A program made the translations under genes and the position numbers. The notes under the pieces were generated by a model, which ran no database searches, was not told where the DNA came from, and was given only the letters and a program-made list of their open reading frames with translations. This document shows, piece by piece, positions 5,933-48,528 of a DNA stretch of 64,000 nt. Source of the DNA: Ilex aquifolium (lineage: Eukaryota; Streptophyta; Magnoliopsida; Aquifoliales; Aquifoliaceae); the NCBI GenBank assembly GCA_951799425.1, contig OX637396.1, positions 11,011,701 through 11,075,700 on the forward strand. The letters are read 5' to 3'. The stretch's first letter is position 1. Each line of letters starts with the position of its first letter.

Positions 5933-6735
5933 GAAAGCTTGTGCAAAGTAAATGTAAAGTTGCAGTTGAATACTTACCTATTGATCAAATGTGTATCGAT
6001 CCATAAACAAAACCACTAAGTGGTGAAAAAACCAGTCTAATTATGAGTGGTATGAGACTCTTAGAGATAGTCCTGACAGTAACCTACTCTAATAAATAGA
6101 TGCCAACATGATTTGAAAATCTTTTGATTAGAGTTAAAAGAAATTTAGTCAAGTATTATCCAAGGAATGCTATTGTGAGGTTACATTTACAGTACATTGC
6201 TTGTTTTAGCAATAGTAGGGATAGAACCTATTCCAATTAAAATCTCAAAGCTAGTTAACGTACTGCTAAGTAAAGAGGTAAGAGCTGTTTCCTATGGGTT
6301 ATCGGTAAAACCCTAAGACTACTTACTAAGCAGGATCCGGGCAAGGTCCATTAACGAACTGCCTTGAGAGAACCATGTACTCTGTATATTGACAATGTGT
6401 CTTGAACTTTAAGTGCACATCATGATCAAGATTGAGTTCTCTTTATCATTTAAGTTATCGATTTCATGTTTAACTCTAGATTTAAGACTCATGCATCTAA
6501 GGGTATGTATTTAAGTAACATGGATCATGAAACCGACACGGATTGAACTGGTTTGGATGTAATCTTAATGGGTTCGGGTGACTAATGAGTGAACTCAGCC
6601 AACTCGTAAAATAAACGAAACGATTTTGTGTTTAAACTGTGACCTGTTCCTACCTGTAATCCCAAAAAAATTGGTCAAGTCTCAACCTCACTCCTTATCT
6701 CTTAGACAATCTATAAAATCCATAGAGCTTGATTT
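5933..6735. other. Gene-free degenerate sequence
   Basis: No frame or structure I can support. The right part is rich in short CGGGTT/AACCCG words shared with 6880-7010 and 8600-8830, probably old transposon ends. Confidence 0.4.
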
Positions 6736-7560
6736 AATGTTTACTTTTTGTCTTTATTTTTCTGCCCACCCATGCTTTGTTGTTGCTATAATAAACAAGT
6801 CAAACAGGTGTAATATGTTAAGAGTTGAAAAAAATTTCGTGTGGACTTGAAACACTCTTATTTTGCAGGTGATAAACGGGTTGTGCCGAGTAACTCGTAT
6901 AATTAACGAGTCATGCACAGGTGTGATAGTTGAACCCGTTTATATAAATGAATGGGGTATGAGTAAAGTGATTTTTGACACGCACCCGTTTCATCTGACA
7001 TAATTGTCTGGCCTATATGTATTATACAATACCTTAACCTTTCTTCATTATATCATTTTTAGTACATAAGTGGGGGGATTGTTGTATATATATTTACTAA
7101 CATTGATTTATTATATTTAAATTAGTTATTGGTGGTTAAAATAACTATTGGCAATTGTCTCTAAAGTGACAAAACCAAAAGATTACAAATATTCTAAAAG
7201 TGTCCATTGGCATTCAAATGAAGAATCACAATTCTTCTAGAGATATGCATGGGATACTATAAATATAGGGTGCACATATTTGGGTAAAAAGAAGAAGTCT
7301 TTTCTAGTCCTATTATCCTCTGTTCTTGATGTTCAATTTCTTGAGATTTATTCGGATTGTATTTTGGTTCAAATACTTTTAAGAAATGCAGTCTTAGATA
7401 GTCTTCGATTGAAAAAAAGAAAGAAAAAAAATGAGTCTTCGAGCATTATATTTTGGGAATAGAATTTTTATGAGTCTATCTGTATCATAGTAGAGAAATT
7501 ACTATTTTGAAGATAGAATGCTTATATTTCTATATTTTGCATATATTAATCAAAAGAAGT
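6736..7560 (+). mobile_element. Copia-type 3' end with LTR, copy 1
   Basis: This stretch is closely repeated at 26811-28519. Both copies contain a purine tract (AAGTGGGGGGAT) directly before TGTTGTATATAT, the usual PPT-LTR junction of a Ty1/copia element; in this copy the LTR starts at 7080. A TATA-like ACTATAAATATAGGG near 7257 and a T-rich R region follow. The right end is degraded near 7520-7560. No pol coding remains. The ORFs at 6626-6850 and 7280-7462 are artefacts of this repeat. Confidence 0.65.
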
Positions 7561-13260: not shown

Positions 13261-13275
13261 TCTCCCCTCAAACTC
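13261..13275 (-). other. Copia polypurine tract
   Basis: On the minus strand GAGTTTGAGGGGAGA lies directly before the 3' LTR, the expected plus-strand primer position. Confidence 0.85.
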
Positions 13276-14707
13276 ACGATGCGGCAGCTACAAGCATCGA
13301 GAGTTTGCCAACTAGAAAATGAAAACGGGAAATAGAATGCGACTTGGTAAAGAAATCTGCAATCTGCAAAGAAGAAGAAACAAAGGGCAAAGTAATGGTG
13401 TTATGCTTGAGATGATGACGAGTAAGGTGACAATCGATCTCAATGTGCTTAGTTCGTTCATGAAAAATCGAGTTGTGAGCAATCTGAATAGAACTCTGGT
13501 TGTCACAATACATTGGAGTGGGATGAGAAATAGAAACTCCCATATCTGCAAGTAACCAACGTAACCAAACAATCTCTTTAGTAGTAGATGCCATAGCACG
13601 ATATTCTGCTTCGGTTGAAGATTGAGAAACAATAGATTGTTTCTTGCTCTTCCAAGAAATAAGAGAATCACCCAAAAAGATACAGAAACCAGTAACAGAC
13701 TTGCGATCTGTGGGATCACTGTCATGATCAGCATCAGAGTATGCACGCAGCTCCAAGGAAGAGGTGGATGGAAGTAAAAGACTCTGAAAAATTGTACCCC
13801 GAAGATACCGCAAAATACGAAAAACAGCTGCCCAATGAACTGTAGTAGGAGAAGCAACAAACTGACTAACAACATGAACAGCATATGCAATATCTGGACG
13901 AGTAATAGTGAGATATACCAAACTCCCAACAATAGTACGGTATAAAGTAGGATCTGACAAAAGTAAACCATCAGAAGAAGAATACTTTGCGTTAACCTCA
14001 ATGGGAGTATCTACAGTCTTATTATCAGTAAGTCTAGCCCGCTCAAGAATATCTGCAACATATTTCGACTGAGAAAGAAGATAACCTCTGGGTGAGTGGG
14101 CTACCTCAATACCCAAGAAATATCGTAGAAAACTCAAATCATTCATTTCAAACTGTCTAGCTAACTCTGTCTTCAAAACTGAAATACCATCAATATCATC
14201 ACCAATAATAATCATGTCATCAACATATAAAGACAGAATGATACGACATGCATCAGTGCACTTAACAAAAAGAGCAGAATCATGACTACTAGAAGCAAAT
14301 CCAAGAGAAGACATCACAACAGAAAATTTCTCAAACCAAGCACGAGGTGCTTGTTTGAGACCATATAATGCTTTCTTTAGCTTGCAAACATACCCATAAT
14401 CATGTGAAACACCAGGAGGAGGAGCCATATAAAATTCTTCTTGAAGATCTTCATTCAAGAAGGCATTTTTAACATCAAGTTGAGAGATATGCCACTGACA
14501 AACCGAAGCAACTGCAATAAGAGTACGAATAGTAGTCATTTTTGCAACAAGAGCAAATGTCTCCTCATAATTCATACCATACTGTTGAGAGTACCCTTTT
14601 GCAACCAACCTAGTTTTGTATCGCTCAACAGATCCATCAGAATTAGTCTTGATCTTATACACCCAACGACAACCAACAACACTCTTACCAGGAGGTAGAG
14701 GAATCAA
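13274..14707 (-). pseudogene. Copia reverse transcriptase-RNase H
   Basis: This 477-residue frame carries the Ty1/copia reverse transcriptase: the LVAKGYSQ and LDVKNAFLN segments, KALYGLKQAPRAW near residue 112, the catalytic YVDDM at 161-165, and a C-terminal RNase H with SDADHDSDPTDRKS and SSTEAEYRA. The usual AFLNGDL motif reads AFLNEDL here, a Gly-to-Glu change. It is in frame with the integrase ORF, but a TGA at 14711-14713 separates them, so no fused polyprotein forms. Otherwise the domain is uninterrupted to its end beside the polypurine tract. Confidence 0.95.
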
Positions 14708-14710
14708 ATA

Positions 14711-16615
14711 TCAAGTACCTGTCTTATGCAAAGCAGAAAGTTCCTCATCCATAGCTTGTTGCCAAAAAGGATCAAGAATTGCCTCTTTATAGGACGAGGG
14801 CTCAGAGAGACAATGAATAGAAGCTAAAAAGGAAGTAAAAGATGAAGAATAACAAGAATAAGTAAAATCTGGTAACTTTGTGGACTTACGAATGCGTGTA
14901 GATTGACGTAGAGGTGGATCCACAATCTTAGACAGAGCTTGAGGGACCATAGAAGAAGATGGAGCTTCGGGTGTGCTAGAGAGTAAAGTGTCAGTACCTG
15001 CAGAATGATCAGAAAAATGATCTATACAAATAAGATCAGATCTAGTGAAGCTATGAGTAGTGGATGGAATAGAAAAGAACGGTATATGCTCGAGAAAAAC
15101 AACATTTCGAGACATATAAAATTTCTGAGTTATTGGATCAAAACAACGATACCCCTTTTTACCTTCACCATAACCAAGAAAAACACAAATAGCAAATCGA
15201 GAGGATAGCTTGTTGCGTTCTACATGAGGACGAAGAACGAAACAAGTACAACCAAAAACTCTAAAAGAAGAATAATCAGGGGCATACCCATACAACTTTT
15301 CGAAAGAAGAAACACCTGAAATATGATAAGATGGAATTGTATTAATCAAAGTTACAGCAGTAAGAATAGCTTCACCCCAAAACACACTAGGAACAGAAGC
15401 AGACAACAAGAGAGAACGAGCAGTTTCAACAATGTGCCTATATTTTCTTTCAGCAACACCATTTTGCTCAGGAGTATCTGTACACGAAGTTTGGTAAATA
15501 GTTCCATCTAAGGCAAGCAACTGACAAAATTCATTAGAAGTGTATTCCCCACCCAAATCACACCTAAAACATTTGACAACAGCAGAATGTTGAGTTTTGA
15601 CAAGAGCTCGAAAGGCTGTATATATCCCAAAGAATTCAGAACGATGTTTCATTAAATAAATCCAACAATAACGAGTATGATCATCAATAAAAGAAACATA
15701 ATATCGAGACCCTCCTTTTGTGGCAACAGGAGAAGATCCCCATACATTAGAATGAATCAAATCAAATGGAGAAGAAGAAACGGAAATACTTCGATTAAAA
15801 GGTAAAGCAGAAAATTTTGCCAGTTTACATCCACTACAATCAGAAATATCACAAGTTTGCAAATTTCCTAAGGCCCCTGTGGATGCCAAAAATCTCAAAC
15901 GAGAAGAGGAAACATGACCTAGACGAGAATGCCATAAATAAAAACTAGAAGAAGAAGAACTCAAACGAAAAGAAGATAAATCAACACTAGGAGCAGCAGC
16001 AGCAGCAACTGGCACTTTTAACTCATCCAAAATATATAGTCCCCCCTTCCTACGGCCTGTCCCAATCAGCTTCTGAGACTGCAGATCCTGCACATAACAA
16101 GAAGAAGAGGAAAAGGTGACTAAATTACCAGAATCACATAACTGACCAACAGAAGCAAGATTTAATGTGAGTTTCGGAATATGATAAACATTAGGGAGAG
16201 ACAAGTGGGGTGTGACAACAGAACCAACACCTGCTAAAGGCATAGGAGTTTCATCAGCAGTCATAACAGGAATAGAAGAAGAAGGCATAACAGAAGCAAA
16301 AGATGAAGAATCTGAAGACATATGATGTGAAGCACCAGAATCCAAGACCCATACAGAATGTGACATACCTGAAGAACTATAAGGCAACTGACCTACGGAA
16401 GAGGAAGCAGACATAGCTTGTGGTTGTAAGGAGAGAAACTTCTGAAATTGCTCAGCCAAAGTACTAGGATCGATGAAAGGATCTGATGAAACTACTGCTG
16501 CAGTATTAGACTGTGGTGGTTTGTAACCCTGAGGTGGTCTATGAGCATTAGATTGTGACTGGTTGTCAGGCTTCCAAGCTTGAGATTGCTGCTGCGATTG
16601 ATTCTGCTGTCTCAA
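14711..16615 (-). pseudogene. Copia protease-integrase
   Basis: The 634-residue frame begins in the Gln-rich end of gag. The protease motif VLDSGASHHM is near residue 91, then a GAG-pre-integrase zinc region (H, H, C..C around WHSRLGH and CSGC), then an rve integrase core. In the core the first catalytic Asp has become Asn (IHSNVWG instead of the usual HSDVWG), while the later CDLGGEY and AERK acidic residues remain. The frame ends in TGA at 14711-14713, where the reading frame otherwise continues straight into reverse transcriptase. The track-style start is not ATG; the true start was upstream in gag. Confidence 0.95.
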
Positions 16616-16619
16616 CTTC

Positions 16620-17402
16620 TTAGGACATTGAGCCTTCCAATGACCTTTTTGCTTACAGAAACTGCCTCGTCGAAGGCAACCCTTGTGTAAGGCTTATTCT
16701 GATTATTAGAGAATGGCTTAGAAGGTACTGCTAACACAGAAGGATTAGAAGTAGAAAGAATTCCTTTTCAGAATAAGACTTGAGACGTATTTCTTCAGCC
16801 AATAACTCACTGACAACTGAGTCAACAGAAGGAAGTGGAGAACGATGCAAAATTGAACCTCTAAGTACTTCAAAATCACTGCGAAGTGTCGTTAAAAATT
16901 GTACCAATCGTCGCTGCTCTCTACGATCAATATAGGCACCACATGCCTTTAATTCTGCCGATTCTGTAAGAGCCAATTGATCCCAAAGATCTGTCATAGC
17001 AGAATAAAACTCCTGAATACTCATATTCTGCTGCTGAAGAGCTCATATGTCATTCTCCAATTGATACTACTTTGCAAAATTTGATTGAGTGAATAACCTT
17101 TGCAGATGATCTCAAACCTCTTTTGCTGTCTCATACTTCGCCAATTGTGTACAAATAGAATGCTCAACAGAATTGTTAATCCAAGTAATAATTTTCGCAT
17201 TGTTTGCTTCCCAGATATCTATCAAATCAGCATAACAATCATCAGTATTCTTAGGTTTCACAGAGGTTCCACTAACATATCCCCATATCTTTTTACCCTT
17301 AAGAAAATTTTTCATCACATAACTCCAATACGAATAGTTCTTTCCATCCAACCTCACACTCACAGACTGAAGCGAATCATCTCTTTCAGTAGTCATAATC
17401 AA
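16620..17402 (-). pseudogene. Copia gag (UBN2-type), broken
   Basis: Gag starts with ATG at 17402 and shows the Copia gag layout (VRLDGKNYSYWSYVMKNFL, later a helical region with LTTLRSDFEVLRGSIL). TGA stops occur at 17112-17114 and 17043-17045, both in the frame of the flanking coding sequence; family positions suggest lost Trp and Arg codons. The frame then shifts near 16770 and again near 16665, the second hit lying in the CCHC zinc knuckle, of which FCKQKGHWKAQC survives in the downstream frame. Confidence 0.9.
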
Positions 17403-19053: not shown

Positions 19054-20471
19054 TCAGTAATGTGTGGTCAAGAACTGTATTTTCCGATCATTGATCCAAA
19101 TCTCAGGGACGTGAGCTATCTTTGGCCAGTCCTCGCCTTTCTCTTTCTTGCATCGCCTTTCCAAATGTGGACATTCTTCAATTCGCAGTCTTTTGAGTGT
19201 TCGGAGACACTGCAGCCCATCTGGCAAGGAGATCAAGTTAGGTCCATTCCTAATCTGCAACGACAACAGTGACCGGAGGCTTCCTAACCCATTCGGTAGA
19301 GAAACTAATCCATTACAAGACAATAATTTCATATGTCGGAGAGCATTTAAATGTTGCATGTCTTCGGGCAAAGACGTCATCTCTGGACATTCATCTATGA
19401 ACAAATTCTGGAGAGCGGTCAGGTGTTTCACTCCTTCAGATAAACACCTTAGTTTCTTACAGTTCTCTATCCACAATGTTTTCAGGGGAGACAAGCCTTG
19501 TAACCCTGTCGCCGGTAAGGATGTAAGATTGTCACAATTCCATAAATCGAGTCTCTCTAGGGATGTGAGGTTTTTGAGTCCTTCTGGTAAATATTCAAGA
19601 GAATTACAACCATCAATCTTTAAAACTTTCAGAGCAGATAGATTGTCTAGCTGATGTGACAGAGTCTTGAGATTGCATAGACTAATCTGTAGGTACTCAA
19701 GAACCTTGTGATTTTCAAGTAGTCCATCTGGAAGAACCTCCAACGTGTCAAACTCACCTACTTGAAGCCAGGAAAGTGAAGTGAAATCCATCACTTGCCT
19801 AATTAGCATTACATTACTGTTTTCTATTCTTAATTTCCCAAGTGATGGAAGAGAAGGAAATTCAGTCAACCTGGGACATTGTCTGATCTCTAATTCCCGT
19901 AAACAAGGAAAAATTTCTCCTGTGTGTGTTGTTGTCCATTCCTCCAAACTAGGCATAGCACGGAAACTGAGATTTTCCAATGCCTGAAATAATGGTTTCC
20001 CATCTCCATAGCAGTCATTGTTGAAACACTTGACAGCATCCATTTCAAAAATAGAAAGAACCTTGAGGAAGGGTAGTTTCCCAAGAGGTGGAAGATGTTC
20101 ACATCTCTTACATTGTCTTAGAGAGGTTTCAACCAGATTCTGAAGATCTAAATCTAGCAACCAATTTGGAAACTTCAAGCCTTGATACGACCATATGCTC
20201 AACTTCTTTAGATTTGGATGAGGTTGGAGACCATCAAGAATTTCTTCAACATTTTCTTTGTCAGTGTTGATGTCTCCGTAATCCAATATCAGAGCACAAA
20301 GATTTTGCTTCCTCTTTAAATTGGCACTTCTTGCGTCCTCTGAATTTCCTACATTATGGAGTCCTTTGATGGTCAACTCACCACCAAGATTTAATTCTTT
20401 CAGCTCGCCTATTTGTTGGTCATGGTTGGTACCCACAATAAAGATGCTTAAAGTTTGTAGGTTACATAACT
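19054..20471 (-). pseudogene. NB-LRR gene, C-terminal LRR part
   Basis: This is the 3' half of the resistance-gene relic that starts at 25306. It holds a long series of leucine-rich repeats of the CC-NB-LRR type (LPDGL, LPEGL, LPNGL and similar), beginning GQLCNLQTLSIFIVG and ending with the common C-terminal pattern LRIEECPHLERRC, GEDWPKIAHVP. The stop lies at 19054-19056. It is separated from the 5' half by the foldback element at 20482-23128. If the element and one TSD copy are ignored, the frame runs straight on into 23139-23501. The predicted ORF extends a few residues into the element on its right. No stop interrupts this half. Confidence 0.93.
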
Positions 20472-20481
20472 GCCCCAGTCC
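20472..20481. repeat. 10-bp TSD, left copy
   Basis: GCCCCAGTCC, repeated at 23129-23138 on the other side of the foldback element. Confidence 0.9.
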
Positions 20482-23128
20482 GAGGTTTTGACCCAACCCA
20501 TGTAATTTTCAAAAGTTATGCACAAAAAGGGGTCGGTTTGAAAGTATTTCCCAAACCCATGCACTTTTAAAAACGTCAAATGGACTGACGTTTTTAAACA
20601 AAAGACGTCAGTCCATCTGACGTTTTTAAAAAAAATTGATCTTTAAAAACGTCAGATGGACTGACGTTTTTAACATGCCTTTTGTTAAAAACGTCAGTCC
20701 ATCTGACGTCTTGTGTAGAAGGCCTCTAAGAAACGTCAGATGGACTGACGTTTCTACTGCCTTTCCGAGACCCCAGCCACCAATGCCTTATGATAGTTCA
20801 AGCCTTATGACTGCACACCACCAATTTCAATGCCTTATGACTGCACACCACCTAAATTATATTAGTATTAATATTAGTTTGGGTAATTTTAATAACTGCC
20901 CCCTAAAGTTTCTATCGAGTTTTTATTTAGTGCCATAAATTTTTATTGTTTTAATTTAATCCATCAATTTTATTTCAATTAAATCATTTCATTAATTTTC
21001 ATTTTTCGACATACTTTTAAAAATTTTCGACTTAAAATAATATTATAAAATTTATAAATAATTAATATAAATTAATATTAGTTTAGGTAATTATAATAAC
21101 TGCCCCCTAAATTTTTTCTCGAGTTTTTATTTAGTCCCATAAATTTTTATTGTTTTAGTTTAATCCATCAATTTTATTTCAATTAAATCATTTCATTAAT
21201 TTTCATTGTTCGACTACAATAATATTTTCGTTTTCAACTTACAAGATTAATTTTTATTTTTCGACTTACTTTTAAAAATTTTCGACTTACAATAATACTA
21301 TAAAATTTATAAATAATTAATATAAATTAATATTAGTTTAGGTAATTATAATAACTGCCCCCTAAAATTTCTCTCGAGTTTTTATTTAGTCCCATAAAAA
21401 TTTATTGTTTTAATTTAATCCATCAAATTTATTTCAATTAAATCATTTCATTAATTTTCATTGTTCGACTACAATAATATTTTCGTTTTCAATTTACAAG
21501 ATTAATTTTCATTTTTCGACTTACAATAATATTTTAAAAAAACGAAAACCAGTCGTTAAGAACAACAGTGAATCAGATACAAATGAATATTCCTTTTAGT
21601 GAAACTTATATTTAAAATTACTTATATTTTTTAGCATAGAAAAATGCAATTTAAAATTGCAGTGAAAGGATATGAAACTGCAAAATTTGGAACTGATTTG
21701 ACAGTGATTTAAAGTGACAATGAAAAAAGTTGGGATATAACAACACACTGCATAAAACTGATAAAGTAACGAGATAGATTAAAGTAAATAAGATATCACA
21801 TTGCAAAAGTTGAGATATGACAACACATTAAATAAAGTGATAAAACCACAATATTGCTTAAAGTAAATAGAACGTAGACATAAACGTTGTATGGTTAATA
21901 CAGTAGACACTAATAATATTTATTAATTTTCATCAGACATATACTCATCTGATAGGTATTGTTCATTAGACAATACATTAGATCGCTCAGTAGATGTTAA
22001 GTCCCTGCCAAATGTAGTTGTCACCATGTCAGATGCTATTTGAAGCATATAATATCGGCACTTACGCAACATCATCCTATTATTCTCCTTTCGAAAAATA
22101 AAAATTAATCTTGTAAGTTGAAAACGAAAATATTATTGTAGTCGAACAATGAAAATTAATGAAATGATTTAATTGAAATAAAATTGATGGATTAAACTAA
22201 AACAATAAAAATTTATGGGACTAAATAAAAACTCGAGAGAAATTTTAGGGGCCAGTTATTATAATTACCTAAACTAATATTAATTTATATTAATTATTTA
22301 TAAATTTTATAATATTATTTTAAGTCGAAAATTTTTAAAAGTAAGTCGAAAAATAAAAATTAATCTTGTAAGTTGAAAACGAAAATATTATTGTAGTCGA
22401 ACAATGAAAATTAATGAAATGATTTAATTGAAATAAAATTGATGGATTAAACTAAAACAATAAAAATTTATGGGACTAAATAAAAACTCGAGAAAAAATT
22501 TAGGGGGCAGTTATTATAATTACCTAAACTAATATTAATTTATATTAATTATTTATAAATTTTATAATATTATTTTAAGTCGAAAATTTTTAAAAGTATG
22601 TCGAAAAATGAAAATTAATGAAATGAGTTAATTGAAATAAAATTGATGGATTAAATTAAAACAATAAAAATTTATGGCACTAAATAAAAACTCGATAGAA
22701 ACTTTAGGGGGCAGTTATTAAAATTACCCAAACTAATATTAATATTAATATAATTTAGGTGGTGTGCAGTCATAAGGCATTGAAATTGGTGGTGTGCAGT
22801 CATAAGGCTTGAACTATCATAAGGCATTGGTGGCTGGGGTCTCGGAAAGGCAGTAGAAACGTCAGTCCATCTGACGTTTCTTAGAGGCCTTCTACACAAG
22901 ACGTCAGATGGACTGACGTTTTTAACAAAAGGGATGTTAAAAACGTCAGTCCATCTGACGTTTTTAAAGATCAATTTTTTTTAAAAACGTCAGATGGACT
23001 GACGTCTTTTGTTTAAAAACGTCAGTCCATCTGACGTTTTTAAAAGTGCATGGGTTTGGGAAATACTTTCAAATCGACCCCTTTTTGTGCATAACTTTTG
23101 AAAATTACATGGGTTGGGTCAAAACCTC
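20482..23128. mobile_element. Foldback Mutator-like element, 2.65 kb
   Basis: The element is a near-perfect inverted repeat: arms of about 1.05 kb (20482-21530 and 22085-23128) around a unique loop of about 550 bp. It starts GAGGTTTTGACCC and ends with the complement. The 10-bp TSD fits Mutator-like elements (8-11 bp). Each arm carries five alternating copies of ACGTCAGATGGACTGACGT, itself a 7-bp stem with 5-bp loop, and three direct repeats marked by CTGCCCCCTAAA at about 20896, 21100 and 21354, mirrored at about 22248, 22503 and 22708. No transposase is visible, so it is non-autonomous. The 100-residue ORFs at 20636 and 22672 are the same repeat read from both arms and are not genes. Confidence 0.92.
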
Positions 23129-23138
23129 GCCCCAGTCC

Positions 23139-25306
23139 AGTAGGCGTACAAACAAGAGAATCACATCCTCTAATGTCAAGACATCTGAGATTTCTCAAAT
23201 TTTTCATACCTTTGGGCCACTTACAAAGTAGACGGCAATCTTTCAACATCAATGTATGTAGGTTTTGCAGACAAGTCATTGAATCCGGTAAAGTTTTGAT
23301 ACTAGAGTGCGACATGTTAAGGTACCTAAGATGTTTCAAATTCCCAATTGACGATGGTAGTTTTTCAAATCTACCCCACTCTGACCCAAACACTGACAAG
23401 CTTTCCATATAACTGGGCAACTTAGCAAGCCCACAATAATTTTGGGCTTCAACATGTGCAGATTTTGAGGAAAACTTGTTGATTCTGGTATTTTCATTCA
23501 AAAGTTCGACATGTTCAGGTACCTAAGATGTTTCAAATTCCAAATTGAAGATGGTAATTTGTTAAAGAGACACTTATTCAACTCCAACACTATCAGATTA
23601 CCTTGTTTTGAGATGTAGGTAGCAAATTCCTCTACACTCACTTCTCTTGATAGGACTAAAATGGAGCGTAAAGATTGCACTTTCTGCACATCTTCGTATC
23701 GAAGAACCATCGAAGGTGGCCTCCCATAAACAGATAAATGGCGAACTTTTTCCGGAATTTTCAGTACCTTTCGAGGCTCTATTATGTAGCATTATTGTAT
23801 CATAATAGACAGTGCAAGATCATGCATCAGATCGTGCATTTTACATGTCAAGTCACCCTTGTAGTCCTCCTTGACATCTTGAAAGAAAGACCTGCAAACC
23901 AAATTATGGAAGATCCCACAGCCCATAAGATACAAATCTGTTTCTCCATTAGAGTGAATAAAGCCATTTGCAATCCAAAGCTCTATCAGCATGTCCACCT
24001 CCATTACATAGTCTTTGGGAAATATTGAGCAATAAGCAAAACATTGCCTCAAAGATGGAGATATATTGTCATAACTTAGCCTAAGGACGGGTGAGATAGC
24101 ATTTTCATCATCTGCTAAATCCCAAGTTGCGCTTTCTTTCACAGATAACCATTCACTTATTTTGTTTTTTAACCGCAACAAGCTTCCAAGGGCCTTTATT
24201 GCCAAGGGCACCCCACCACATTTCTTCATTATTGCCTTGCCGATTGTTTCCAACTCTATGTTTTCCTCCCTTCTTCCAATCTCGAATGCCCGGTGCTTGA
24301 ATAAAATCCAAGAATCATCCTCTGACAAAAATCCCAGATTAAATATTGGAAGAGTAGCCATCATGAGAGCAATTTTCTCAATCCTGGTGGTTACAATAAG
24401 CATACTTCCTTTAGCTCCACACCTCAGTACATCTTTTAGTCTATCCCACTTCTCATTTTCTTCGTTCCACACATCATCCAACACAAGTAAAAATCTCCTC
24501 CCACTCAATTTTTCTTGGAGGCGTCGCTGCAGTGGATCCAGCTCTGAGATATTGCACCCTACACCTTCTATCGACTCAATGATTGCCTTGGTTAGCCGTC
24601 GTATTTTGAAATCCTCAGATACACACACCCAAATCGGCAATTCAAAGTGCTTCTGTACCCTTGGATCATTGTAAACCAATTGAGCAATTGTGGTCTTTCC
24701 AAGCCCCCCCATACCACATATAGCATAGACCGACAGGTCATTCTGATGGCTCGAATTGTTAAGCAATACCTCAATTATCATTTCTTTCTCCTCGTTTCTA
24801 CCGTAAATTTCTGATTCAATCACAAGTGAGCTAGTTTGTCTTCCCTCCATGTCATAAACTTGTGAATCAATAGCACTTTCTTTCAAGTGGAACTTAAATC
24901 TCTCCCCTGCAATTGCATCTAATCTCTCCCTTATGTCCTTCACCTTATGAGCCATTCTTAAGTGAAATACGAAAGGATTTCGAGTCGTGAAGAAGGCACT
25001 TACTTGGTTTATCACACCTCTTTGACGGTCTTCCTTTCGTATGATAGCTTCAGTCGCAAAATCATCCAATATATTGTCGACATCATAAGCTGCATCTTTG
25101 AGCTTTCTCAGCCAATTCTGCAGAGCCTCGCTCTTCGTTTGCTTGGCCTCCGCATCGTGAAGTACAGCTTGAATTGTAGAAAAAGTACTCTCAAGACGCT
25201 GAATCTCATCCTTTAGGCCCCCAGATATTCCCAATTCTTGCAATAATGACGAATTCAAGTTTCCCAAGATGGTGCTCACAAGCCCAGAAAGAAGTGCATC
25301 TGCCAT
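23139..25306 (-). pseudogene. CC-NB-LRR resistance gene, N-terminal part
   Basis: ATG at 25306 opens a 504-residue frame: Rx-type coiled-coil (1-150, with AYDVDNILDDF at 73), NB-ARC with P-loop GMGGLGKTT (198-206), kinase-2 LLVLDDVW (273-280), GGVPLAI (364-370), CFAYCSIFPKDY (422-433) and MHD (490-492). Such proteins act as intracellular immune receptors. A TAA at 23792-23794 stops it, but the same frame continues through LRR sequence to about 23498. A degenerate tandem LRR duplication with a frame change follows, then the frame at 23040-23501 holds LPSSIGNLKHLRYLNMS and further LRRs up to the foldback insertion at 23128. All motifs are present, so loss of function looks recent. A truncated CC-NB protein could still be made. 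Confidence 0.95.
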
Positions 25307-26080
25307 ACTATCTTGATTTCGATCTCTACCCAGAAGGAACTCAACACCAGAAAGATTGGAAGCTGAACTGATTGGTAATGGAAATGAATGTTAAGAAAAC
25401 TGGGAGACACTAGTGGGCAAGAGGCAAGCTTGGTCTATTATCAGTTTTCCACCTTGGGGACCACACGGTATGGACCATAGAGAGATCGATGAACACCTTC
25501 CTCCAATCGTATTACGCCACCCAATTCGATTTTTTTTTTTTTTTATCAAAAAAAAAAATATATGGATTCCTTGCAGCTACCAATTGTCATTTTGTTTTCT
25601 TGCAATAATTCAAACAAAACGATGTTGGACTATTTTTTTTTTTTTTTTGCTGGTTTAAAAAAGGGTGAGGACAAGGAAGAGAGCTAAAAGTGACCATTGA
25701 TTCAGGCTAATTGGCGTGATGAAAATTACCGACTTATCGAAAAGTCTCCAAATCAATCCAAGGCCGGCTCAATAGAATTTGGGGCCTTAACCGAAAATTT
25801 TAAACAAGGCCTTTACAAACTTATTATAAATATATATGTTATTTTATGGCTATGCTATTTTTTTAATGAAGAGAGTTTATTCTACTTTATGCATTATGAA
25901 CTAAAAATCAGAGGAATGAGAGAGTGAGAGAGAGAGATGTAAGTAGGATTTGTCTATGTAAATGTATTTGTATATGCCCTAATTATGAAGAGTGATTGGA
26001 TTAGCAATAAATAAAGAGAGAAGATGTGATCTTTTAAGTGAGTGATGACTGTTGATTTGATGAGAGAGTGTATACATGTT
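25307..26080. other. Upstream of NB-LRR; T-rich tracts and hAT fragment
   Basis: This holds the presumed promoter of the NB-LRR gene, but no clear TATA box was singled out. T/A runs lie at 25530-25560 and 25632-25650. From 25759, CAAGGCCGGCTCAATAGA matches the left end of the hAT family at 56731, so a partial hAT copy is present. Confidence 0.45.
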
Positions 26081-38835: not shown

Positions 38836-40544
38836 ATGAGTAGAGTTCAACTATCAACCTCAATCTTCTGCTATATTTTTTGTTTAACTGTATCGATGTT
38901 CTTCACTCTTTCAATGGCTTCCCTTACCATAGTTTTCTACGGATCGAGTTGTCCCTCTGCAGAGACAATCGTTAGGAAAGCCGTGTGTCGCAGAATCCTG
39001 GCATAGCTGCAGGACTCGTTAGAATGCATTTCCATGACTGCTTTGTTAGGTTATGCTCAATATCTTTTGACACTCTAATTTGTCTGGGAATTAACTTAGA
39101 AAATTACGCCCTACTTGGTTTGCATCTCAGAAATTATTTTTCTATTTTCAAAAACAGTTTCCAAGAGAAAAATAGTTTGACCAACTATTTTTTTTTTTTT
39201 TTTGAAAACTGAAAACAAAAAATGGGTAAATTTAGATAACAAGTTAGGATTGTTTTGTATTTTTAGAAACAACCTTTCAAGAATTTGGAAAACAACCACC
39301 GCCACCACCACCACATTTTTGTTTTCCTTGTTTTTTGGGTTACTGTCGAAACAAGTTTTACTAATTTATATTCCGTAGAATTGTTTTTAGAAACATATAA
39401 CCAAACAAGTTCTGCGACACAAAAATCAAAACACACTTTTCTAAAACTCTAACCGAAAATAATTTTTGGATACTATTTTTTGAGACACAAACTAAACAAG
39501 GCCTTACATCTTTTAGGGTCAGCATTAAGATTGTTCCATTGTATTCGACTCACCACAAGAGACTCTCCAAATAGGGGGCTAAGGTTATGGAATAAAATTG
39601 ATACTTTAGGGTGTAATGTGATAAATTTTATAGTTGAGAGTACAAAGTAAAACAAAGGTAATAGTTCAAGGGGATAAAATTACATTTTACCGTTTCTATG
39701 TACTTTCATTGTTTCATATAGACGGAGTAACTAAAGGTGATGGAACTAACAGCGTTGCCTTTAAATATGCTTTCAGGGTTGTGATGCTTCAATCTTACTT
39801 GATTCAACACCTGGTAAGCCCTCAGAGAAGGAACATCCAGCCATCAATCCAAGCTTGCGAGGCTTTGAAGTAATCGACAAGGCTAAGGCTAAGCTTGAAG
39901 CTCTATGCCCTCAAACTGTTTCGTGCTCGGACATCCTTGCATTCGCTGCTCGCGATAGCGCCTTAAAAGTAGGAGGAATCAACTACTTTGTCCCTGCTGG
40001 ACGTCGCGATGGAAGAGTTTCCCTAATAGATGAGCCTTTACAAAACCTCCCATTTCCTTTTCTCAATGCCACACAGCTTGAGCAAAACTTTGCAAGGAAG
40101 GGACTAACTCTTGATGAAATGGTCACTCTCTCTGGGGCACATTCTATTGGAATCGCAAATTGTGCTAATTTCTCGAATCGATTGTATTCCTTTAATTCGA
40201 CTCATTCGCAGGACCCTTCAATGGATCCCAAGTTTGCTGAGGACTTAAAGACTAAGTGTCCAAGAAATGGAGCATCAAGTGGTACCATTGTGCCTCTTGA
40301 TCAGGTTACACCAAATAGATTGGATAACAATTACTATGTAGCTTTGATGAATCATCGTGGCTTGTTAATATCGGATCAAACGCTATTGAGTAGCCCTTCG
40401 ACGGCTGGGATGGTGTGGAGAAATGCAAAACTTGGTACAAGTTGGGCTAAAAAGTTTGCAGCTGCAATGGTCCGTATGGGTTCTATTGATGTTCTCACAG
40501 GTACTCAGGGTGAGATTAGGAAGAAATGTAGGGTTGTAAACTAA
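38836..40544 (+). pseudogene. Class III peroxidase, probably inactivated
   Basis: Exon 1 starts at ATG 38836: a hydrophobic secretory signal, then [22 protein letters not shown] frame break (apparent 10-bp loss near 38983) puts a TAG at 39004 in the original frame, while [21 protein letters not shown] with the distal His continues in another. Exon 2 (39777-40544) follows AG at 39776 and is intact: GCDASILLDS, AARDSA, the proximal haem His in [12 protein letters not shown], and an ending in GEIRKKCRVVN. The only GT donor (39050) gives a frame mismatch with exon 2, suggesting a lost base at the junction. Secreted peroxidases oxidise phenolics with hydrogen peroxide in the wall. An in-frame upstream ATG exists at 38740. 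Expression is not excluded. Confidence 0.9.
39108..39503. mobile_element. MITE in peroxidase intron, 396 bp
   Basis: Starts GCCCTACTTGGTTTGCATCTC and ends with the near-complement GAGACACAAACTAAACAAGGCC. TTAC flanks both sides (39104-39107, 39504-39507). The GGCC-TTGTTTGG type of terminus suggests a PIF/Harbinger- or hAT-related MITE. It explains about half of the intron. Confidence 0.75.
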
Positions 40545-40811
<267 letters not shown>

Positions 40812-41810
40812 TATTAATAAAAGTACCCTAAGTGAAAAAAATTTGATTCACTATTTTACCCTCATAAAAAATTTAAATACCATACTATCTTTTCATAGTC
40901 AAATATCTAAATTACAATTACATCCTTATGTATTTAAATCTCCAAATTACCCTCTAACATCTCTTTTAATTCTCTATTATCTTAGTATAAATATCAATAT
41001 CTATGAAAAATTATAATTGACTACGTTACTCTCAAAAAAATATATATATCATTATAGTTTTCAATAAGGTGTTTAAAAACTCCATCAATATTTCATTACT
41101 CTTGTCAAGTATGATAACATTATTCCAATATATATTAGTATTTTTTTTTTCTATCTATACTACTAATAAAAAATGAAACTTTTGTCTTAGTATGAAAAAT
41201 TTATAATTCACTATTTTACTCTTATAAAGAATTTTAAATATCACACTATCCTTCCGTAGTTGAATATCTAAATTGCCATCATATATTTATGTGGTTAAAT
41301 CTCTAAAATATTCATAACATCTCTTTTAATTCTCTATTTACTATGTATAAATATCAGTATCTATTAAACTTTTTAATTGGTTACGTTACATTTATGAAAA
41401 ATTTTAATTGACTACGTTACTCTAAAAAATATATATATATCATTATAATTTTCAATAAGGTGTTCAAAAACTCTATCAATATTTCATTACTCTTTTCAAA
41501 TATGATAACATTATGCCTATATATATGTGTATTTTTTTTTTCCATCTATACTACTAATAAATAATGAAACTTTTGTCTTAGTATAAAAAAATTTTAATTC
41601 ACTATTTTATTCTTATAAAGAATTTTAAATATCAAACTATCCTTCCGTAGTTGAATATCTAAATTGTAATCATATATTTATGTGGTTAAATCTCTAAAAT
41701 ATTCCTAACATCTCTTTTAATTCTCTATTTACTATGTATAAATATCAATATCTATTAAACTTTTTAATTGGCTACGTTACCTTTATGAAAAATTTTAATT
41801 GACCACGTTA

Positions 41811-41865
<55 letters not shown>

Positions 41866-47690: not shown

Positions 47691-48528
47691 TTTTTTTTTT
47701 TTTTTTTTTAACAACAATCACCAACTTTTCATTACTGATAAGAACATTCATTAAAAAACTAGTTAAACAAGGGAACATACCCTCGCTTAATTGATTTGTA
47801 GCTTTCTTATGTGGGCATGGTCTGCAATCTTTTGTGTTTATACTTCTGCTCCGTATTGAAGCACCGTGCACTCTCTGTCAAGCCTTTGGACATGAGTTGC
47901 TTCAACACACCAACCCCCTCTCGTAATGCAGCATCAATCCGTTCTCGAGCTGTAGCATTGAATTTTTGGAGCAAGAATGCTTTGGGATCCATTTGACCGG
48001 GAGGCCTCCCAATACCAATTCTTAACCGGGCAAACTCTCTGTTCCCACGGAAATGATAAATCACGCTCTTCAGCCCATTATGGCTTCCATGGCCTATATT
48101 ATGGTGTAGGCGAAGCACTCCACATGGTAACCCCATGTCATCATGAAACACAACCACACGATTAAGAGGGAGCTTATAATAAGCTGCAAGTGGACCACTT
48201 GATTCGCCACTCAGATTCATATAGGTTTGGGGCTTTGCAAGGAAAACAGGAACGCCATCAACAAAACCTTTTCCAAAGAGAGCTTTGCAATGAACTGAGT
48301 CCATAGGAATCCCTTGTGCTTCAGCAAATGCATCAATCATATCAAACCCTACATTGTGTCTTGTTCCCTTATACTTATCTCCAGGATTACCCAACCCCAC
48401 AAAGAGCCATGGCCGACCAGAACCACCACTAGTACAGAAGTTGCGCCTACACAACCTGACAAGCATCATCTTCTCAATTCACCCTCCATTAACGCCGTCA
48501 TGGTCTAGTACCGACCAATGTCACTACT
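47691..48528 (-). mobile_element. Retrocopy unit of peptidyl-tRNA hydrolase mRNA
   Basis: The unit comprises a 59-bp 5' leader, the intronless ORF, a 3' UTR of about 100 bp and a poly(A) of 19 (seen as T at 47691-47709). It is flanked by AGGATATTCTTACAATT (47676-47692) and AGGATATTGCTACAATT (48529-48545), 15 of 17 alike. Poly(A), no introns and long direct repeats together indicate LINE-mediated retroposition of a spliced mRNA. Confidence 0.85.
47807..48469 (-). CDS. PTH: Peptidyl-tRNA hydrolase, Pth1 family, retrogene
   Basis: The enzyme releases peptides from peptidyl-tRNA dropped by stalled ribosomes. The 220-residue protein is full length for the family. Active-site positions are present: Asn28 (GLGNPG), catalytic His38 (TRHNVGF), Asn85 (TYMNLSG), Asp110 (FHDDMG) and Asn131 (HNGLKS), spaced as in bacterial Pth. 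The usual GGHNG reads GSHNG here, a Gly-to-Ser change at 129. A short Arg-rich start ([16 protein letters not shown]) suggests mitochondrial targeting. No intron interrupts it, unlike what is usual for plant nuclear homologues, and a poly(A) and flanking repeats surround it. It may be functional or a recent processed pseudogene that has not decayed. Confidence 0.93.

Follow-up and report, generated by a model that had tools for sequence, protein, structure and literature searches.

Origin of a foldback element in an Ilex aquifolium NB-LRR gene: probable inverted duplication of the left end of a MuDR-type MULE

Introduction

The origin of foldback MULEs is seldom visible, because the parent has been lost. 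A 64,000-nt stretch of the Ilex aquifolium genome (C6:11011701-11075700, here called the window) contains a near-palindromic foldback within LRR coding DNA, and raises the question of what this element is and how it came to have two facing ends. The genome searched comprises 800 Mb in 103 contigs, which are given C numbers here; loci that were examined are given L numbers. The foldback is very probably a non-autonomous Mutator-like element that was formed by inverted duplication of the left end of a MuDR-type MULE, and the making of such copies is seen unusually clearly in this genome.

Results and Discussion

Structure of the foldback element

The foldback at 20482-23128 is 2647 bp long and is flanked by perfect 10-bp TSDs in the window sequence. 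Its parts are listed below, where P denotes positions on the full-length MULE from contig C15 described in the following section.

20472..20481: TSD GCCCCAGTCC, left copy, matching the uninterrupted site in 3/3 paralogues read
20482..21520, plus strand: left arm, 1039 bp, corresponding to the left end of the full-length MULE, P1-1057
20573..20751, plus strand: left-arm array of five 19-bp hairpin motifs in alternating orientation, starting at 20573, 20605, 20649, 20691 and 20733
20991..21500, plus strand: pair of 255-bp direct repeats in the left arm; a partial third lies at 20787
21521..22089, plus strand: loop, corresponding to subterminal DNA of the full-length MULE, P1057-1630, and including the end of a 152-aa ORF of the MULE
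22090..23128, minus strand: right arm, a second left end inverted, P1057-1
22091..22093, plus strand: turn point, 3 bases TCG common to both templates
22091..22600, minus strand: pair of 255-bp direct repeats in the right arm
22859..23037, minus strand: right-arm array of five 19-bp hairpin motifs in alternating orientation, starting at 22859, 22901, 22943, 22987 and 23019
23129..23138: TSD GCCCCAGTCC, right copy

The two arms make up 2078 of the 2647 bp and are 98.6% alike (15 mismatches over 1039 bp), with a loop of about 569-571 bp between them. A first-pass annotation of this DNA had described a near-palindromic foldback of ~2.65 kb with ~1-kb arms and a loop of 550 bp, and this is confirmed, with lengths of 2647, 1039 and 569 bp. 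Both arms begin with GAGGTTTTGACCC and form long inverted repeats built from shorter repeats, as is characteristic of Foldback elements. The motif ACGTCAG-ATGGA-CTGACGT is present five times per arm, in the order +-+-+ on the left and -+-+- on the right; thus the five alternating hairpin motifs that had been noted are found, in mirrored order. Three mirrored direct repeats per arm had also been proposed, of which the two 255-bp repeats stand, and the third is partial and more diverged than these two. The foldback is not a chance structure, since its arm belongs to a multicopy family.

When the 15 differences between the arms are compared with the C15 element, 11 are private to the right arm, three to the left arm and one to neither.

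A full-length MULE with the same ends

A full-length element of 9639 bp, bounded by a perfect TSD AGTCTAAGTA, is found at C15:9339200-9348838. It was assembled from locus L017 and the adjoining L048 and L049. The left end is GAGGTTTTGACCC and the right end GAGCTTTTGACCTC. The TIRs are ~245 bp long and 85% alike, and beyond the TIR the right subterminal DNA is unlike the left. The 19-bp motif is present five times at the left end and four times at the right. Three domains are recognised in the ORF at P5377-3221, read as 706 aa of L017: PF03108 (MuDR DNA-binding), PF10551 (MULE) and a SWIM finger. Thus the window foldback, whose ends are common to an element coding for a MuDR-type transposase, is a MULE. 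The absence of a transposase within the foldback, as first annotated, is borne out, and the transposase resides in the full-length element with the same ends. The annotation had also taken the perfect 10-bp TSD as pointing to a Mutator-like mechanism, and this is supported by the TSDs of the family and by the MuDR-type transposase of the relative. An ORF of L018 likewise shows PF10551 and the SWIM finger.

In L014, a long family element, the end of a domain of the plant mobile type (PF10536, E 1.1e-26) is encoded at 6236-6850 (minus strand).

The 152-aa ORF adjoining the left arm (L017 3422-3877) is open and of the same length in 11/11 loci examined. No Pfam match was detected up to E 0.1 for the copy in L014. 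The dN/dS values range from 0.35 to 1.18 (15 pairs from 6 copies), and constraint on this ORF is therefore weak at best.

Survey of the family

With the left arm as query, 712 first-look candidates were obtained and 40 were scored, i.e., the window and 39 loci, L009-L047. Left and right ends were assigned by the DNA inside the 245-bp TIR. The termini are common to the copies, with small variants such as GAGG/GAGC; these letters were rejected as a marker of left and right, as GAGC termini are also found on left-left foldbacks. Left-left foldbacks account for 26 of the 40 scored hits, a class that a left-arm query favours (the window, L009-L011, L013, L019-L023, L025, L026, L028 and L030-L042). 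The other 14 are left-right, four of them by sequence (L029, L045, L046 and L017) and ten by coordinates only. Of the 39 loci, 27 display two family ends, and a second end was found in all of the other 12: by sequence in L045 and L017, and by coordinates in L012, L014, L015, L016, L018, L024, L027, L043, L044 and L047. These ten right ends, known by coordinates only, are estimated to lie at a distance of 8.4-13.2 kb from the left one, on the assumption that a further 303 bp reach to the terminus. In L018, the first 16 bp of the left end are not clearly matched.

The 26 left-left foldbacks are 1.6-2.7 kb long. TSDs of 9-10 bp border 25 of them when one mismatch is allowed, and 21 are perfect: the duplication is perfect and 10 bp long in 19, perfect and 9 bp long in two, and 10 bp long but with a single mismatch in four; L042 has none. 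The duplicated sequences are varied. The TSD of the left-right locus L045 was read by eye. Coverage by the C15 element is 0.91-1.00, with the exception of L042 at 0.69 (31% unmapped). Copies with different boundaries or TSD lengths, which the first-pass annotation had named as evidence against its reading, were not encountered apart from L042, in which no TSD of at least 8 bp is present.

The left-left foldbacks fall into 14 clusters at a whole-length cut-off of 85%, with pairs more than 250 bp apart in length left uncompared; these represent architectures rather than proven independent births. Six copies, L033-L038, are ~99.5-100% alike and reside on six contigs with different TSDs, and L037 is identical to L038 over 2036 bp. 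Near identity at six separately duplicated sites indicates that the foldbacks of this sister subfamily have moved recently.

A counter-search with 350 bp of right subterminal DNA, in which 38/38 candidates were scored, gave 41 matches. By coordinates, five pairs of right ends face each other ~2-4 kb apart. In three of the five the ends were read, and family termini with duplications are present: 10 bp perfect on C16, 9 bp with one mismatch on C1, and 9-10 bp on C5, where bases are missing from one terminus. Thus the doubling of ends is not confined to the left end, and right-end doublets were found in smaller number than left-left foldbacks. With a left subterminal stretch of the same size, 40 of 225 candidates were scored and 148 matches resulted; the two counts are not strictly comparable, as the left stretch is internally repeated.

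The 19-bp motifs show a conservation of 0.92 and the spacers 0.80 (84 columns each, from 48 distinct ends, with columns treated as independent). This would be expected of a binding site, but homogenisation of the array could also cause the difference.

Probable derivation of the foldback from one MULE end

When placed on the C15 element, the window foldback reads as P1-1630 followed by inverted P1057-1, with a coverage of 1.00. The arms and loop are thus the left 1.6 kb of the MULE, with a turn at P1630/P1057, family termini and a 10-bp TSD, and both foldback ends derive from the same MULE end, inverted, as in Mu killer of maize. The loop is 98.3% identical to the C15 element. Of 48 substitutions that separate the left arm from this element, 45 are common to the right arm, and the two arms therefore have one source. 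A loop search (40 of 407 candidates scored, 41 matches) gave 13 matches in examined loci (the window, L014-L018, L024, L027, L041, L043-L045 and L047). At seven places outside the window, L014-L018, L024 and L027, the loop is found in full length and 97-98% alike, and all seven are left ends of long elements (with the right end known by sequence in L017 and by coordinates in six). A Pack-MULE was considered and rejected, as no captured host gene fragment is present and the whole element maps to the MULE.

The immediate parent of the window foldback was not found; the arm of the C15 element diverges from that of the window at 290-390, where they are 76% alike with 40 gap columns. In another foldback, L041, the turn lies at P1511 and includes a short filler resembling arm sequence. 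The evidence for the turn consists of one clean 3-base junction, which chance could give, and one junction with filler. A loop 98% alike to a transposase-bearing element, together with several architectures, makes the copying of one end twice, and the turn points, testable genome-wide.

The arrangement was probably formed when DNA synthesis proceeding inward from a left end passed over to the complementary strand at the 3-base match, during break repair or replication. Such a switch would give two left ends face to face, and a transposase supplied in trans probably then moved the two-left-end unit into the LRR exon. Template switching and microhomology are given as marks of transposon derivatives in parts of two reports (PMC8277862, PMC4168063).

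The foldback may instead have been born in place: a full-length MULE in the LRR exon would have undergone aberrant gap repair after excision, whereby the right end was replaced by a second left end. This would retain the same TSD, and it is compatible with the finding that no near-identical second copy of the window foldback is present among the scored hits of the arm and loop searches, so that the evidence for its own movement is its TSD. However, repair would presumably have to join the copied left terminus exactly to the flank. Since both sides do join the flank exactly at the left terminus, as a transposase does, birth in place is the less likely course, and we consider it improbable.

Relation to Mu killer and possible small RNAs

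An inverted duplication of one MULE end brings to mind Mu killer (Muk), a rearranged MuDR of maize with both TIRs from one end, inverted (in the portions of PMC3440606 and PMC2563033 considered). Portions of PMC3440606 place the origin of both TIRs at the mudrA-side end and describe an inverted duplication in addition, and PMC2563033 describes, in part, the cutting of the hairpin RNA into siRNAs. By analogy, the window foldback may be a regulator whose hairpin transcript is processed into small RNAs acting in trans to silence the MULE family, and it may persist for this reason. Its design is that of Muk as outlined in PMC3440606, with both ends from one MuDR-type end in inverted orientation, and in a predicted RNA fold 1027 of the 1039 positions of the arm are paired with their mirror-image partner. 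However, any palindrome folds in this way. In addition, the arms stop at P1057, before the transposase ORF at P3221-5377, and no part of the transposase gene is included in the inverted duplication, whereas Muk holds ~1.3 kb of mudrA. Passages of PMC3440606 also credit shorter antisense transcripts and not the long hairpin. A regulatory role of this kind is thus quite unlikely as an explanation of the window foldback.

The first-pass annotation had suggested that small RNAs from the element could be directed against NB-LRR genes. This finds no support, because the whole foldback maps to the MULE with a coverage of 1.00; any small RNAs would, by sequence, be aimed only at MULE ends.

A broader possibility, speculative and rather unlikely, is that the left end of this one MULE family, which in the full-length element has five hairpin motifs to the four of the right end, repeatedly gives rise to parasites with two left ends, which compete for transposase and offer a family-wide hairpin RNA, and so limit their own parent. 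If true, Mu killer-like elements that limit their parent would arise naturally and spread. In the limited literature considered, Mu killer is the only element of this kind for which a silencing effect is reported, and a family with many natural copies would allow one to ask whether Mu killer-like triggers are common.

Deletion and assembly as alternatives to inverted duplication

The palindrome might also stem from internal deletion of a MULE that had 1-kb TIRs at both ends, with the middle lost and no inverted duplication. Deletion derivatives with a left and a right end do exist (L029, L045 and L046). However, in the sole full-length element read to both ends, the TIRs are alike over only ~245 bp, and its right subterminal DNA is absent from the window foldback, whose two sides both map to the left end. 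Internal deletion is therefore very improbable. It is hardly credible that the palindrome is imitated by two separate MULE copies inserted head to head or by an artefact of assembly: palindromes are generally hard to assemble, but no observation in favour of this was found, one TSD brackets the whole unit, there is a single loop and it comes from the same left end, many sister foldbacks with TSDs of their own are found elsewhere, and one arm is not a plain assembly copy of the other, given that they differ at 15 places.

Comparison with known elements

The window foldback shares features with several described systems. Muk is presented, in the parts of the two Mu killer reports used here, as a single derivative from one line; here there are many foldbacks, some of them multiplied. 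By description, a likeness exists to FARE of Arabidopsis, which has long palindromic ends and is counted among the MULEs in the relevant section of PMC4486113. According to the same source, again in part, MuTAnT and AutoMuTAnT of Medicago truncatula are foldback MULE copies found beside a transposase-coding relative, as is the case here; however, MuTAnT is mostly 200-300 bp long and located in TA microsatellites, whereas the left-left foldbacks of this study are 1.6-2.7 kb long and have varied TSDs. The tandem-TIR MULEs of plants similarly have rearranged long MULE ends and are still mobile, but their TIRs are doubled in tandem (PMC3310237, in part), whereas the foldbacks of this study repeat a single end in inverse orientation. 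Tm1 of root-knot nematodes and Muta1 of Aedes aegypti share the MULE-type transposase, TSDs of 8-9 bp and non-autonomous relatives, and sections of the respective reports liken their composite, repeat-built TIRs to Foldback elements (PMC3169594, PMC5225508). They differ in having animal hosts, and the likeness is by description. For Muta1, an assay in yeast has been used (PMC5225508). In a limited search of the open literature (titles and beginnings of abstracts), no description was encountered of a plant MULE family in which one end has repeatedly undergone inverted duplication. The origin of a foldback from one end is not claimed as new, and foldbacks of this kind are already known.

The interrupted NB-LRR gene

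The minus-strand flanks of the foldback represent a CNL-type NB-LRR gene, with LRRs on both sides of the insertion. The parts of the gene are as follows.

23795..25390, minus strand: 5′ part of the NB-LRR gene, with Rx_N, NB-ARC and winged helix
23792..23794, minus strand: in-frame TAA, a lesion independent of the foldback
23139..23522, minus strand: LRR stretch in frame with the 3′ part, with a frame change to the 5′ part near 23500-23522
19057..20471, minus strand: 3′ LRR part of the NB-LRR gene

When the flanks are joined over one TSD copy, a 603-aa LRR frame results. When read into the foldback, the LRR frame gains ~29 residues and stops at 23040-23042. The joined 810 bp were used in a search for paralogues, in which 30/30 candidates were scored and 32 matches were obtained. 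In 18 of these the alignment spans the join; 16 lie on C1, and C7 and C11 have one each. Three were read (on C7, C11 and C1), and the insert at the TSD site is absent in all three; identity is 84, 89 and 90%, and the C11 copy shows a gap of a single base. That the element was inserted into LRR coding DNA, as first proposed, is thus upheld by the joined frame and by a clean empty site in 3/3 paralogues read.

The claim that removal of the foldback restores the frame holds in part. The LRR frame is restored locally, as 23129-23522 is continuous with the 3′ part, but the NB-ARC ORF is still separated. The frame arithmetic that had been offered (23501 to 20496 less 2657) is wrong: 23501 is a third codon base and 20496 a first, and as the codon positions differ, a multiple of three fails to unite the ORF at 23501-23791 with the 20496 ORF. 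Nor does the foldback alone split a gene that is otherwise in frame, because the TAA at 23792-23794 and the frame change near 23500-23522 are two further lesions that separate the NB-ARC ORF and the LRR. The direct effect of the foldback here is to add one lesion to an NB-LRR gene that has two others in this assembly.

Near the frame change, an LRR stretch of ~120 bp (23249-23369) is repeated at 23449-23566, where it is 78% alike. Sixteen of the 18 paralogous sites that span the join lie on C1:13.6-18.1 Mb, and the copies in the window (C6), on C7 and on C11 are separate from these.

Downstream of the NB-LRR gene, ORFs of a Copia-type retrotransposon (RVT_2, integrase core and gag pre-integrase) are found at 13274-16693 on the minus strand. 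Elsewhere in the window, a peroxidase gene (PF00141) is located at 39765-40541 (plus strand), a 391-bp unit is present in 2.1 tandem copies with 93% matches at 41002-41833, and a peptidyl-tRNA hydrolase gene (PF01195) is located at 47810-48478 (minus strand).
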